NCBI GenBank assembly: GCA_903824185.1
Contig: CAIJVU010000074.1
Location: 62,001 to 126,000 of the forward strand
Length of the DNA stretch: 64,000 nt
Direction of reading: 5' to 3'
Source of the DNA: an uncultured Hyphomicrobiales bacterium
Lineage (GTDB): Bacteria; Pseudomonadota; Alphaproteobacteria; Rhizobiales; Beijerinckiaceae
Part shown: positions 33,433-38,385 of the stretch, in pieces
Layout of the letters: each line of letters starts with the position of its first letter
Position numbering within the stretch: position 1 is the first letter of the stretch
The notes under the pieces: model-generated
Database searches by the model: none
What the model was told of the DNA's origin: nothing
Seen by the model: only the letters and a program-made list of their open reading frames with translations
Made by a program: the position numbers and the translations under genes

Positions 33433-34221
33433 TTAACGAAAGTTGCAAGGCATAACGCCATGAATCTGCAGGTTGTGTCCCTGAGCGTCTGCAGACAGGC
33501 GGGCCGACAGGCCAAAGACATCGGCCAGAACATCTTCTGTGAGAACCGTTTCCACAGGGCCGTGCGCTACCGCCAAGCCCTGATGCAGCAACAAAATCCT
33601 GTCGGCAAAACGGGCGGCCAAGGCCAGATCATGCAGCACAACCAAAACAGTGCGGCCCCGCCGCACCTGATCTTGCAACATGGCCATGACCAGAAATTGC
33701 TGGCGCGGATCAAGCCCCGCCACGGGTTCATCAAGCAAAAGCCATGCTGCGCCGGTGGCCAAAGCCCGCGCCAATAAAGCCCGCGCCCGCTCACCGCCCG
33801 ATAATTCTGTGACCAAACGATCAGCCCAATCCCCTATCCCTGTGGCCTGCATGGCCTCATCCACGGCCTTCTCATCAATGCTGGTTGCAGTCTCAAGACT
33901 GGAACCATGGGGATGACGCCCCAGCATCACCACCTCCCGCACCCTCAGAGGCCAGACCAGTTCCCGCTCTTGCGCGAGATAGGCGATTTGGCGGGCTTTT
34001 TCAAAACGGTTGAACTTTTCAAGCGCCTGACCATGCAAGTGCACCGTGCCGCTTTGTTTGGTAAGCACGCCCGCGAGATGCCGCAACAACGTGGATTTGC
34101 CCGCCCCGTTGGGACCGGCCAGAACATGCAGGCACTGCGGCTCAAAAACGGCATCGAGCGGTCCCAAGACGGTTTTTTCACCATAGCCGATACGTAAATG
34201 CTCAAGCGTCAAATCCCTCAT
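33433..34221 (-). CDS. btuD: Cobalamin ABC transporter ATP-binding protein
   Basis: 262 residues. ABC ATPase of the FecE/BtuD/HmuV type: Walker A GPNGAGKST, signature ELSGGERARA, Walker B LLLDEPVAGLD, with the LGRHPHGSS segment of metal-chelate importers. It overlaps btuC by 4 bp. By sequence alone it could be a haem or siderophore ATPase; the cobalamin riboswitch at the head of the operon is the reason for naming it BtuD. Confidence 0.85.
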   Translation of the reverse strand: MRDLTLEHLRIGYGEKTVLGPLDAVFEPQCLHVLAGPNGAGKSTLLRHLAGVLTKQSGTVHLHGQALEKFNRFEKARQIAYLAQERELVWPLRVREVVMLGRHPHGSSLETATSIDEKAVDEAMQATGIGDWADRLVTELSGGERARALLARALATGAAWLLLDEPVAGLDPRQQFLVMAMLQDQVRRGRTVLVVLHDLALAARFADRILLLHQGLAVAHGPVETVLTEDVLADVFGLSARLSADAQGHNLQIHGVMPCNFR

Positions 34222-35234
34222 GCCTGACGCCCCTGTCCGGTTTCACGCCGCACCGCGAGCAGATAAAGCGGTGCCCCCAAAAGGGCGGTCAGCGCGCCGA
34301 CTTTGATCTCGCTTTGGGCGGGAATGAGCCGCACCGCAACATCGGCCAGTTCCAATAACAAGGCCCCTGTCAAAGCCGAGGGCCCTAAAATCTGTTTGGG
34401 ATCAGATGAGAGAAACCGCCGCATGATTTGCGGCGCCGCCAAACCGATAAAGCCGATGGCCCCCGCCACCGCGACCGAGGCACCGACCCCCAAAGCCACC
34501 GCCAAAAGGGTGACATGTCTGACCACATCCAGATCGACGCCCAGTGACAAAGCCGTCTCTTCGCCCAAAGCCAGCGCACGATAGGCATTGCCCTGCGCGA
34601 GCAAAAGACCCATGGCCAGCATGATAAAGGGAGCCGCCAAAACCACATGCTGCATGGAGCGGTTTTCAAACGAGCCCATCAGCCAGAACACAATCTCTGT
34701 GATGGCAAAGGGATTGGGGGACAAAGCAATCAGAATGGAGGTGGCAGCGCCCGCCAAACTGCCCACGGCCAGTCCTGCCAACAAGAGCACAAAGACCTGC
34801 GCGCGCTGGCCCGCCAATAAAAGCAACAGCCATAAAGACAGCATGGCCATGGCCATGGCGGCCAGCGGCAGAACCCAAGACAAAGCCCCCGCCAATCCCG
34901 TATAGAGCACCGCCACCGCACCCAAAGCCGCCGATTGCGGCGCGCCGAAAATACTGGCATCGGCCAGCGGATTGCGCAGCAAAGCCTGAAGAGCCGCGCC
35001 GGACAATCCCAATACCGCGCCCACCAACAAAGCCAGCACAGTCCGCGGCAGACGGATTTCATAAATAATCAGGCCCGCCACACTCTCGTGACCAAACAAT
35101 CCTTTCAGACTGTCCGACAGGCTCAAGCCTGCCTCGCCAATCAAAAGCGAGGCCAGCGAAACCATAGCCAATAAAACAAGCAGGATGACAACAACCCTGC
35201 GCAAGCGGGCCTGTGCCATCGACCGCGCCTTCAT
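34218..35234 (-). CDS. btuC: Cobalamin ABC transporter permease (FecCD/BtuC family)
   Basis: 338 residues from ATG 35234, 4 bp after the btuB stop; ATG 35219 is another possibility. About ten membrane helices. Family motifs: LPRTVLALLVGAVLGLSGAALQALLRNPLAD, GAPQSAALGAV, and GFIGLAAPQIMRRF near the C-terminus. It forms the inner-membrane channel with BtuD. A longer reading to 35579 would lie inside btuB and is rejected. Confidence 0.88.
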   Translation of the reverse strand: MKARSMAQARLRRVVVILLVLLAMVSLASLLIGEAGLSLSDSLKGLFGHESVAGLIIYEIRLPRTVLALLVGAVLGLSGAALQALLRNPLADASIFGAPQSAALGAVAVLYTGLAGALSWVLPLAAMAMAMLSLWLLLLLAGQRAQVFVLLLAGLAVGSLAGAATSILIALSPNPFAITEIVFWLMGSFENRSMQHVVLAAPFIMLAMGLLLAQGNAYRALALGEETALSLGVDLDVVRHVTLLAVALGVGASVAVAGAIGFIGLAAPQIMRRFLSSDPKQILGPSALTGALLLELADVAVRLIPAQSEIKVGALTALLGAPLYLLAVRRETGQGRQA

Positions 35235-35238
35235 CGCC

Positions 35239-37257
35239 TCACCATGTGGCTTTCGCCCCGACATAAAAAGCACGGCCGGTGATGCCGTAATTATAAATGT
35301 CCTGATAATGCGCATTGGTGAGATTTTCAGCGCGGATATAGGCGCTGACAGTCTCGGTGATTTTGTAACTGCTGCGCAGATCGAAACGGGCATAAGGCGC
35401 AAGACGGGTGCGGATCGAGGAGAAGCTCGCATCATCCCAATAGGAATCCGCACGATGTCCGACGAGATAAAGACGCGGTTCGATTTCCAGGCGCTCAAAG
35501 CCCGTATAAACCAGACTGACCATGCCCTGATGTTGCGGCCGCCGTAGCAAGGCCTGATGGCTCGCCTCGTCTTGCGCAATCTGGAATGTATAACTGGATT
35601 TCAATTGCAGCTGATCGGGGATAAGCGCCACAGTCATGGACTGTTCGAAGCCGTAACTATGGGCGCGATCGACATTAAAATAACAGCCGCCCAAAGTATT
35701 GTTTTGAAAAGTGGTGCAGGTGGTGGATTGGCCGTAATTGATCAGATTGTCATAGCGTAAATCAAACCATGTGAAGCTGGCTGTGACACGCTTGTTGAAC
35801 AGATCCTGATCAAAGCCTGCATCTATCCCGAGATTTTTTTCAGGCTGTAATAGGTTGGAACCATAGGCGCTGAAGCGTTGGTAGAGAGAGGGTGACTTGG
35901 CACCCGTGCCGACACTGGCGCGCAATTTCGTATCGGTTTCCGGCAGGAGATAGGCCGCCGTTGTGCGCCATGTCGCAAAATCATTGATCTCGGTATGATC
36001 CACGCGACCACCCAAAGACAGGCTCAAGCGATCCCCCAAGGGGATTTGATGAATGGCATAAACAGACTGCGTGGATTGGGAGGCATCGCCTGTGACATAA
36101 AGCGTGGACGAGCGGCGCGGCAAAGCCTCATTGGTGCTGTAGGCGGTTTCGGTTTCCGTTGTCGCGCCCAACACCATTTTGCCGAGCGCGCCGAGCTTCA
36201 CATCATTTTGCCAATCAATGCCATAGCGCTCGCCGCGATAGTCGAGGGCATTGGCCCCAAACAGCGAATAATCAGGAGAGTAATAACCGACATTGCCGGA
36301 CAAACGATCCGTGCGATTGGCAAATAATTTGACGGCACTGCGCCATTGGCCGTCCATGAAATCCATGCTGCCTTTGGTCCAGGCCTGCATGGTGCGATTG
36401 CGCGTGCGGTTGAAGGGATCATCATAAACGGTGAGATAATTGCTATCCGACCCGAAGTCATAATGATTGTTGTTCATCATGGCGATGATACCGGCATCAA
36501 GCCGGATGGTCTCTTGCGGCTGCCAACCGACCCGCGCCGACAGGCTGGCTTTTTCCGCTGGATCTTTTTCCAGAGGCGCTGTCAGATTGCGGGTGATCCG
36601 CGGAATGTTATGGCCGTAATTGGAAAAGCCATCGGTTGAAAAACCACTGACCGAAAGCGCGTAATCTGTCTCGCTGGTACCGCCGCTGACAGAGGCCGTG
36701 GCGGCGCGTGTGCCATAGCTGCCACCTTCCACACTGACGCTGGCTTTGGCATCGCGCTTGCCTTTGCGGGTGATGATATTGACCACGCCGCCCATCGCCT
36801 CCGACCCATACAAAGCCGATTGCGGTCCGCGCAAAATTTCGATGCGCTCGATGTCATTGGCTGCCAGTGCCGAAAAATCAAATTCGCCGCCGGTTGAGGA
36901 GGGATCGCCGATCCGCACGCCATCGAGCATCACCATGGAATGACGCGCTTCCGCACCGCGCAGTCGCAATGTGGCAAGGCCCGCCGGTCCGCCATTTTGC
37001 GTCACCGATACGCCGGGGACGGCGCGCAACACATCGGCAAGCGATTGCGCGCCCCATTTTTCGATCTCCTCGCGCTTGATCACGGTGACGGCACTGCCGA
37101 CCTGACCAATGCTGGTTTCAGAGCGAAAGGGTGTCACCACAATTTCATTGCCGGATGACGCGCTTGGCATTTGGCTTTGGGACAAAGCGGCTTGCGGTAA
37201 CAACAGACAAGCCAACAACGCAGGCCGCACGGCCTTGCGCACAAGAATCATAGACAC
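35239..37257 (-). CDS. btuB: TonB-dependent outer-membrane cobalamin receptor
   Basis: 672 residues from GTG 37257, which has GGAGG 7 nt upstream; ATG 37251 is possible but too far from that site. Signal peptide to about residue 26. TonB box-like NEIVVTPFRSE, plug domain VGSAVTVIKREEIEKWGAQSLADVLRAVPGVSV with SALYGSEAMGGVVNIIT, then a 22-strand barrel ending in an aromatic residue (VGAKATW). It imports cobalamin across the outer membrane using TonB energy. The cobalamin riboswitch directly upstream supports the specificity. First gene of btuBCD. Confidence 0.92.
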   Translation of the reverse strand: MSMILVRKAVRPALLACLLLPQAALSQSQMPSASSGNEIVVTPFRSETSIGQVGSAVTVIKREEIEKWGAQSLADVLRAVPGVSVTQNGGPAGLATLRLRGAEARHSMVMLDGVRIGDPSSTGGEFDFSALAANDIERIEILRGPQSALYGSEAMGGVVNIITRKGKRDAKASVSVEGGSYGTRAATASVSGGTSETDYALSVSGFSTDGFSNYGHNIPRITRNLTAPLEKDPAEKASLSARVGWQPQETIRLDAGIIAMMNNNHYDFGSDSNYLTVYDDPFNRTRNRTMQAWTKGSMDFMDGQWRSAVKLFANRTDRLSGNVGYYSPDYSLFGANALDYRGERYGIDWQNDVKLGALGKMVLGATTETETAYSTNEALPRRSSTLYVTGDASQSTQSVYAIHQIPLGDRLSLSLGGRVDHTEINDFATWRTTAAYLLPETDTKLRASVGTGAKSPSLYQRFSAYGSNLLQPEKNLGIDAGFDQDLFNKRVTASFTWFDLRYDNLINYGQSTTCTTFQNNTLGGCYFNVDRAHSYGFEQSMTVALIPDQLQLKSSYTFQIAQDEASHQALLRRPQHQGMVSLVYTGFERLEIEPRLYLVGHRADSYWDDASFSSIRTRLAPYARFDLRSSYKITETVSAYIRAENLTNAHYQDIYNYGITGRAFYVGAKATW

Positions 37258-37302
37258 AGCAATGCCTCCATCCGTCCCGCCGACGGTGTTGCGGTTACAA
37301 GG

Positions 37303-37509
37303 ACGTTGGCCGGTCTCCTGGCTCGCGGCGTTTGTCTGTTTTCCGCCTTCCCGATCCTGACACCATCCAGGGTGTGCTCAATCAGTGGCATAGTGGAAAA
37401 CGACCAACCGCTTACAGTTGCGGGGGCAGCTGCGGCATGAAAACAAAGCCTTAAACAAAGCCTGTTTCGGCACCGCATTCCCGTTTCACCCCTTGCGGGG
37501 CACCAACGT
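37303..37509 (-). promoter_or_regulatory. Cobalamin riboswitch (AdoCbl aptamer)
   Basis: On the minus strand the conserved parts appear in order: GGTGCCCCGCAAGGGGTGAA with AACGGGAATGCGGTGCCG, then GCTGCCCCCGCAACTGTAAG, then the B12 box AGCCAGGAGACCGGCC (plus 37308-37323). Closing helix P1 is perfect: ACGTTGG at the 5' end (37503-37509) with CCAACGT at the 3' end (37303-37309). The downstream leader carries a small GC hairpin and the btuB GGAGG, so control is probably at translation initiation. It represses btuBCD when cobalamin is plentiful. Confidence 0.96.
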
Positions 37510-37510
37510 T

Positions 37511-37539
37511 TTGTCAGGCTAGGGGATGTGCTTTATAAT
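37511..37539 (+). promoter_or_regulatory. Promoter of btuF, probably leaderless
   Basis: TTGTCA (37511-37516), a 17-nt spacer and a perfect TATAAT (37534-37539). The predicted start is 7 nt after the -10, which is the A of the btuF ATG at 37546. Confidence 0.75.
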
Positions 37540-37544
37540 AGCAA
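37516..37544 (-). promoter_or_regulatory. Probable promoter of the btuB riboswitch transcript
   Basis: Minus strand TTGCTA (37539-37544), a 17-nt spacer and TAGCCT (37516-37521). The predicted start falls at about 37509, the first base of riboswitch helix P1. The hexamers are mediocre, but the position fits. It overlaps the btuF promoter completely. Confidence 0.5.
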
Positions 37545-37545
37545 G

Positions 37546-38385
37546 ATGCCCCATCGCGCTTTCATCCGACTCTTTTGGCTATGTCTTTTTGCGCTGACCG
37601 CAAGCCCCGTGCTGGCGCAAAAACCGCCGCAACGCGTCGTCTCGCTCAATCTGTGTGCCGACCAATTGTTGCAAAGTCTGGCTGATCCCAGCCAGATTGC
37701 CGGACTGTCGCCTCTGGCGCGCGATCCCTCCCTCTCCCTCTTTGCCAAAGAGGCGGACAACCTGCCGGTGCTATCACCCAAAAGCGAAACATTGTTTCTC
37801 GTCAAACCGGATCTGGTTTTGCTCGCCCCCTATGAACACGGGCTGCTGCGCGAACGCCTAGCGAGAGACAAGATCGAGATCTTCATGCTGCCAAGCTGGA
37901 CCTCGCTTGAGGAGGGGGAAGCGCAAATCCGCGCCCTCGCCCAACGGCTCGGGCAAGAGGCCCGCGGCGATCAATTGATCCTTGAAATCACGCACGCCTT
38001 GCAAAACAGCCAAGCCAAAGCCTTGGGCCGCACAAAGCCCGTTTTGGAAATCGAGCGCAGGCTTTACACGCCCGGCCATACCAGTCTGATTGCGGCCTTG
38101 CTCGCACGCTGGCACATGCCCAATCTTGCCGATGATCTGGGATTATCAAAAGGTGGGTTTGTGGCTTTGGAAAAACTGGTTTTACTGAAACCGGAGCGGC
38201 TCGTCATCAGCAATGGCCAAGAAGCGGGATCCCATGCGCCCGATGATATGGGGCTCGCTTTGCTGCGCCACCCAGCCTTGCAGGCAACATCGGTGAAAAC
38301 CATCACGCTCCCGGCCCGCCTCACTTTATGCGGCGGACCTGCAACACCGATGCTGATTGAAGCGCTGTCATCAGCGCTTCAATAA
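37546..38385 (+). CDS. btuF: Periplasmic cobalamin-binding protein
   Basis: 279 residues from ATG 37546; a GTG at 37528 would sit only 2 nt after AGGGG and upstream of the predicted transcript start. Signal peptide MPHRAFIRLFWLCLFALTASPVLA. Helical-backbone metal-receptor fold (BtuF/FhuD type): PPQRVVSLNLCADQLLQSLADPSQIAGLSPL at the N-terminus, KPDLVLLAPYEHGLLRERL, and a C-terminal lobe with DLGLSKGGFVALEKLVLLKPERL. It delivers cobalamin to BtuCD. It is divergent from btuB and so not under the riboswitch. Specificity is inferred from location. Confidence 0.85.
   Translation: MPHRAFIRLFWLCLFALTASPVLAQKPPQRVVSLNLCADQLLQSLADPSQIAGLSPLARDPSLSLFAKEADNLPVLSPKSETLFLVKPDLVLLAPYEHGLLRERLARDKIEIFMLPSWTSLEEGEAQIRALAQRLGQEARGDQLILEITHALQNSQAKALGRTKPVLEIERRLYTPGHTSLIAALLARWHMPNLADDLGLSKGGFVALEKLVLLKPERLVISNGQEAGSHAPDDMGLALLRHPALQATSVKTITLPARLTLCGGPATPMLIEALSSALQ

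Follow-up and report, generated by a model that had tools for sequence, protein, structure and literature searches.

Predicted interleaved divergent promoters at a B12-uptake locus of an uncultured Hyphomicrobiales bacterium: probably a compact arrangement rather than a switch

We conclude, with a probability of roughly 0.6, that a B12-uptake locus in the 64,000-nucleotide stretch of DNA analysed here (the window) is served by two housekeeping (sigma-70 type) promoters interleaved over 34 bp; that transcription of the riboswitch and btuBCD would begin from the leftward one, on the first base of helix P1 of the riboswitch; that the rightward one, near-consensus in this species, would start a leaderless btuF mRNA at its ATG; and that, with one polymerase bound at a time, the stronger rightward promoter may slightly and constantly damp leftward initiation, B12 control coming later, through the riboswitch and on the btuB side only. 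The anatomy of this arrangement is well supported; its reading as a regulatory switch is not. Comparison with related sequences supports the position and conservation of the leftward elements, the adjacency of P1 to the predicted leftward start and, within the genus, the spacing between the rightward -10 and the btuF ATG; we infer where transcription starts, how strong each promoter is, that btuF is translated without a leader, and any damping.

The gene identities at the locus (TonB receptor, FecCD permease, ABC ATPase and Peripla_BP_2 protein) fit a role in B12 uptake. The features are as follows.

33433-34221, reverse strand: btuD-type ABC ATPase
34218-35579, reverse strand: btuC-type FecCD permease ORF, true start uncertain
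35239-37257, reverse strand: btuB-type TonB-dependent receptor, GTG start
37291-37522, reverse strand: cobalamin riboswitch aptamer RF00174, covariance model, 123.7 bits against a gathering score of 31.5
37303-37310, reverse strand: 3' strand of riboswitch P1, GCCAACGT
37502-37509, reverse strand: 5' strand of riboswitch P1, ACGTTGGT, an 8-bp helix
37546-38385, forward strand: btuF-type periplasmic binding protein, Peripla_BP_2

The riboswitch is the single RF00174 match across the source genome (2.8 Mb, 82 contigs). Folding of the stretch 3' of the aptamer gave no signal of an expression platform (z-score +0.94). Elsewhere in the window lies a small bacterial SRP RNA (RF00169, 15512-15608, reverse strand, 49.4 bits).

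Between the riboswitch and btuF, the promoter elements and predicted starts are arranged as follows.

37509, reverse strand: leftward +1 as predicted, on the first base of P1
37511-37516, forward strand: rightward -35, TTGTCA, 5/6 match, just outside the 8-bp P1
37516-37521, reverse strand: leftward -10, TAGCCT, 17-bp spacer, TA in 25/25 non-redundant loci
37534-37539, forward strand: rightward -10, TATAAT, 6/6 match, 17-bp spacer from its -35
37539-37544, reverse strand: leftward -35, TTGCTA, TTG at the same place in 25/25 non-redundant loci, window included
37546, forward strand: rightward +1 as predicted, on the A of the ATG of btuF, 6-nt discriminator AGCAAG

Read directly from the sequence, both hexamer pairs lie where the initial annotation had placed them, interleaved over 34 bp, and each -10 does touch the opposite -35, with one base in common per pair (37516 and 37539). 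The core elements of two divergent promoters are thus interleaved, as in overlapping divergent promoters generally. Each promoter covers elements of the other, so that simultaneous occupancy of both by polymerase is physically excluded, as had been proposed. The leftward start also falls where it had been predicted: a 6-nt discriminator leads to 37509, the outermost base of the ACGTTGGT/GCCAACGT helix. The description of the promoters as overlapping and face-to-face holds in its first part only, since the two transcripts diverge without overlapping, from predicted starts 37 bp apart; "overlapping divergent" fits the arrangement better.

Taken by itself, the leftward site is unremarkable. TTGCTA-N17-TAGCCT matches 7/12 positions of the E. 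coli consensus, and sites of at least 7/12 number 29 per kb per strand; with its score at chance level, that consensus was discarded as an uninformative yardstick. We therefore turned to relatives. They were confirmed by an alignment-based scan; a single-protein scan of named genomes confirmed none. Scanning 92 loci around btuF relatives for riboswitches (L089-L108 left out) gave 46 cobalamin matches. Loci were kept where the riboswitch was divergent from btuF and within 1 kb of it; three same-strand cases (L048, L061, L065), two lying beyond 1 kb (L083, L087) and ten same-genome repeats (L003, L006, L010, L011, L012, L113, L115, L116, L117, L122) were dropped, leaving 31 relatives, or 32 loci with the window. 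Merging rows at 75% identity reduced these to 25, which are not fully independent, as related Microvirga rows remain.

All 32 loci carry TTG-N16..18-TA with the TA within -6 to +5 of the Rfam start. The motif persists in 25/25 loci after merging and in 23/23 without the window's genus, even though those 23 are just 29-43% identical to the window over -50 to +6. The pattern had been noticed before its statistical test, a point against these counts. In first-order Markov resampling (500 rounds) the mean was 0.35 and the maximum 2 of 25, and each of five shifted offsets gave 0/25. Of the 25 loci, 20 have a 17-bp spacer and 5 an 18-bp one, 20 carry C as the fourth base of the -35, and one relative (L133) has the same -10 as the window, TAGCCT. 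The genus alignment shows no change in GCTA of the leftward -10 or in GCAAGATG, which comprises the leftward -35 and the start; TATA differs in a single case, and the spacer has diverged over much of its length. The motif is also retained in the seven loci in which the chosen btuF start lies 60-106 nt away, implying that btuF coding does not account for it. Among other cobalamin riboswitches of the host's family, Beijerinckiaceae in the GTDB sense, drawn from 29 of the 30 best-scoring loci (L139-L168) of a longer list and merged to 26 (L141, the same site as L069, was dropped), the motif occurs in 16 (control mean 0.43, maximum 4) and is absent from 10.

The leftward site also has the alphaproteobacterial sigma-70 pattern of TTGNNN, about 17 bp, TANNNN and a discriminator of about 6 nt. 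The mapped sigma-A consensus of Zymomonas, as given in the part of the study consulted, is TTGNNN-N17-TANNNN with a 6-bp discriminator (PMC7566282). More than 60% of -10s in the alphaproteobacteria covered by the excerpted analysis lack the T at -7 (PMC8407463), which would explain the low 12-letter score of the leftward site. In the Methylosinus data available from PMC12403871, a TYGMSV -35 and spacings of 17 and 6 nt agree with the leftward motif, and the -10, TATAHT, keeps its last T. This last point speaks against our reading: many relatives' leftward -10s lack that T (it is present in just 9/25), and Methylosinus is by name closer to the host's family. Could the leftward promoter lie elsewhere? 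Other reverse-strand 7/12 sites exist, for example those starting at 37565, 37564 and 37559, and TATTAT at 37540-37535, with TGAAAG upstream, is the better -10 under E. coli rules. Yet TTG-N16..18-TA adjoins P1 in 25/25 loci, and we give such an alternative hardly any credence. The leftward site proposed here, then, looks like a real promoter, significant by comparison with relatives and not by its own score. A 7/12 promoter guess can hold when judged by the alphaproteobacterial consensus and by relatives.

Ten Microvirga-type loci (L038, L043, L039, L051, L053, L059, L119, L123, L126, L131) show a peculiarity of their own. Their btuF opens with ATG-CCG/CTG-CAA, and codons 2-3 carry the leftward -35 (TTGCGG/TTGCAG), which perhaps constrains the N-terminus.

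The position of the leftward motif suggests that, in the host's family, the B12 riboswitch transcript appears to lack a leader and to start directly with helix P1. For a discriminator of 6 nt, the predicted +1 falls within -1 to +2 of the outermost P1 pair in 21/24 loci (24 of the 25 non-redundant loci, L081 left out), a count whose informative part is the tightness of the fit to P1 alone, as the motif search window already ties the -10 loosely to the riboswitch start. The exceptions are L008 and L125, at -22 and -21, where the script picked another helix, and L057 at -3. For the other riboswitches, the same test covers only the 16 that bear the motif: the predicted +1 is within -1 to +1 of P1 in 10/16, at -2 in one and further off in five. 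Mapped starts in other alphaproteobacteria agree in part. In the section of the Magnetospirillum study used here, one condition gives a start at 530,905, 16 nt inside an Rfam cobalamin match beginning at 530,889, and another condition gives a different start 88 nt upstream of the cobalamin riboswitch (PMC9549626); the window's predicted leftward +1 sits, comparably, 13 nt inside its Rfam match. Gluconobacter, in the portion of the report consulted, has a cobalamin riboswitch with no detected start (PMC5756330). We regard the P1-at-+1 rule for B12 riboswitches of the host's family as the most useful by-product of this analysis and as a rule worth testing.

The rightward promoter presents the opposite picture, strong in its own sequence and sparsely shared. 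TTGTCA-N17-TATAAT matches 11/12 positions and is the sole site of at least 11/12 (spacer 16-18) on either strand of the 64-kb window, in which sites of at least 10/12 number two, itself included; between 36500 and 38500 it is the sole promoter-like site found. Such near-consensus hexamers stand above chance and have the make-up of a sigma-70 promoter. The -10 ends 6 nt before the btuF ATG, placing the predicted +1 on the A of that ATG, a coincidence that the initial annotation had not pointed out; the btuF mRNA is therefore probably leaderless. Consistent with this, no Shine-Dalgarno sequence was seen before the window's btuF ATG. Leaderless mRNAs are known in alphaproteobacteria (PMC9320726, PMC7566282, PMC4842269) and amount to 7% in Methylorubrum.

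Within the genus, a TA ending 6 nt before the btuF ATG is found in 5/5 genomes. Near-consensus rightward hexamers occur in 1/5 and TATAAT in the window alone; the -10 reads TATAGG in three of the others and TAGAGG in one, with mostly poorer -35s. TTG-N17-TA in the same register is present in 2/5 (the window and L005), and the rightward hexamers reach 7/12 in L029, L030 and L005, with no site of that score in L004. The four other members also have AGGTG before the ATG, a possible Shine-Dalgarno sequence, and their btuF may consequently be leadered. The weak matches and the AGGTG in these four raise the alternative that the rightward site is not the main btuF promoter and that translation of btuF uses a longer mRNA or a different start, as do the ten Microvirga-type loci, none of which has a rightward TTG/TA site in the 150 nt before the assumed btuF ATG. 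We consider this unlikely for the window, given that the site in this species matches at 11/12 positions and is exactly spaced from the ATG, and given the lack of a Shine-Dalgarno sequence and an encoded N-terminus that, by eye, looks like a full signal peptide.

Beyond the genus, in a comparison that covers 26 of the 32 loci and rests on btuF start codons that we chose, a similar interleaved layout is seen in L069 (TTTACA-N17-TAGGCT, 8/12, 5 nt before the ATG). In these 26 loci, a recognisable overlapping rightward promoter turned up only within the genus, where it is weak outside the window, and in L069. Six of the seven loci with long intergenic gaps (L044, L120, L125, L132, L133 and L033, not L047) have a TA 5-9 nt before the chosen btuF start; this is a hint that the short leader of btuF is of long standing, with the proviso that a TA in a five-position window is not rare and that the one in L125 may belong to a Shine-Dalgarno sequence. 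Separately, an inverted repeat of the type GTGGC..GCCAC was seen by eye near the presumed btuF -35 in three of these long-gap relatives (L132, L133, L044) and, less clearly, in L120; it is possibly an operator.

A further element lies inside btuF.

37566-37581, forward strand: DNA-level conserved block CCGACTCTTTYGGCTA, from the third base of btuF codon 7 through codon 12

In a 299-column alignment of the five btuF genes of the genus, codons 8-10 form the only run of at least three codon-identical columns, near the N-terminus; across the same genes, invariant six-codon residues keep their codon in only 8/50 cases. Relative to the predicted leftward +1, the block is centred some 64 bp upstream. 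At up to one mismatch, CCGACTCTTTYGGCTA occurs in btuF only, once in each of the five genus genomes. The idea that it is a regulon motif or shared operator was rejected: matches at up to two mismatches number 4-5 per genome, fewer than the 7-13 of the backwards control. More speculatively, P1, the promoter of btuBCD and the start of a leaderless btuF mRNA might form a 40-bp module in which competition between polymerases fixes the ratio of receptor/permease to binding-protein output, with low noise, the btuF promoter braking the btuB side and the codon 7-12 block tuning it; we find this doubtful.

What, then, does the overlap do? The initial annotation had proposed that receptor/permease and binding-protein transcription are mutually exclusive. 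That proposal does not follow from the geometry, as exclusion at one instant is not exclusion over time in a cell, and the overlap is not widely conserved: all 32 loci have the leftward elements, and of the 26 compared for an overlapping rightward promoter, only those of the genus and L069 show a recognisable one. A device that switches between making receptor/permease and making binding protein, for which the mutual covering of promoter elements might be cited, would be odd, as BtuF works together with BtuBCD in the uptake pathway. Moreover, RNA synthesis is already under way when a riboswitch acts, that is, after initiation, and B12 should therefore not choose which promoter is occupied. The bidirectional promoters tested in E. 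coli also behave otherwise: in the sections of PMC12825309 drawn on here, five of them showed little competition at basal activity, and competition became substantial only with high transcription in one direction. We consider a switch highly improbable.

The same basal-level result favours pure compaction, in which both promoters are real and fire too rarely to interfere, leaving the overlap with no regulatory effect. So does the distribution of the rightward promoter, seen to overlap in the genus and L069 only, though the chosen btuF start is within 30 nt of the riboswitch start in 19/26 loci. Against it stand the near-consensus rightward site and the finding, in the same excerpts, that strengthening one -35 greatly reduced transcription in the opposite direction, the bdcR construct not being stimulated (PMC12825309). 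That argument holds by analogy, as those promoters share one -10 and the window's do not. We regard pure compaction as possible, if on the unlikely side. A near-consensus rightward promoter paired with a weaker leftward one predicts at most a constant, one-sided damping. Most likely, the two are overlapping constitutive promoters, with that of btuF at most damping that of btuB, and the overlap probably reflects compactness and not an on/off switch.

Overlapping divergent (back-to-back) promoters are a known bacterial class, and the locus is a new example of it: two divergent sigma-70 promoters have interleaved cores, of which only one can be occupied at a time. No btuF/btuB promoter overlap of this kind appeared among the open-access titles and abstract openings listed, including those on overlapping divergent promoters. 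The riboswitch resembles RF00174 aptamers upstream of btuB elsewhere, in that a full-length aptamer precedes the TonB receptor and permease genes; the aptamer itself does not differ, and what stands out is the predicted transcript start at P1. The probable btuF start resembles alphaproteobacterial leaderless mRNAs (PMC9320726, PMC7566282, PMC4842269), in that a -10 ends 6 nt before the ATG and no Shine-Dalgarno sequence was seen there, the btuF case being a prediction. The bidirectional promoters with a shared symmetric -10 (PMC12825309) are likewise short sequences that give divergent transcripts of functionally linked genes under steric exclusion; their starts, however, lie around that one -10, at a distance that is most often 18 bp and commonly also 10 or 23 bp, and the window, with two separate -10s and predicted starts 37 bp apart, falls outside that class. 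The locus offers a natural case of polymerase competition in which one product is riboswitch-controlled after initiation. Unlike other overlapping divergent promoters, those of the window are predicted to give transcripts that begin, on one side, with the helix of a B12 riboswitch and, on the other, with a start codon.
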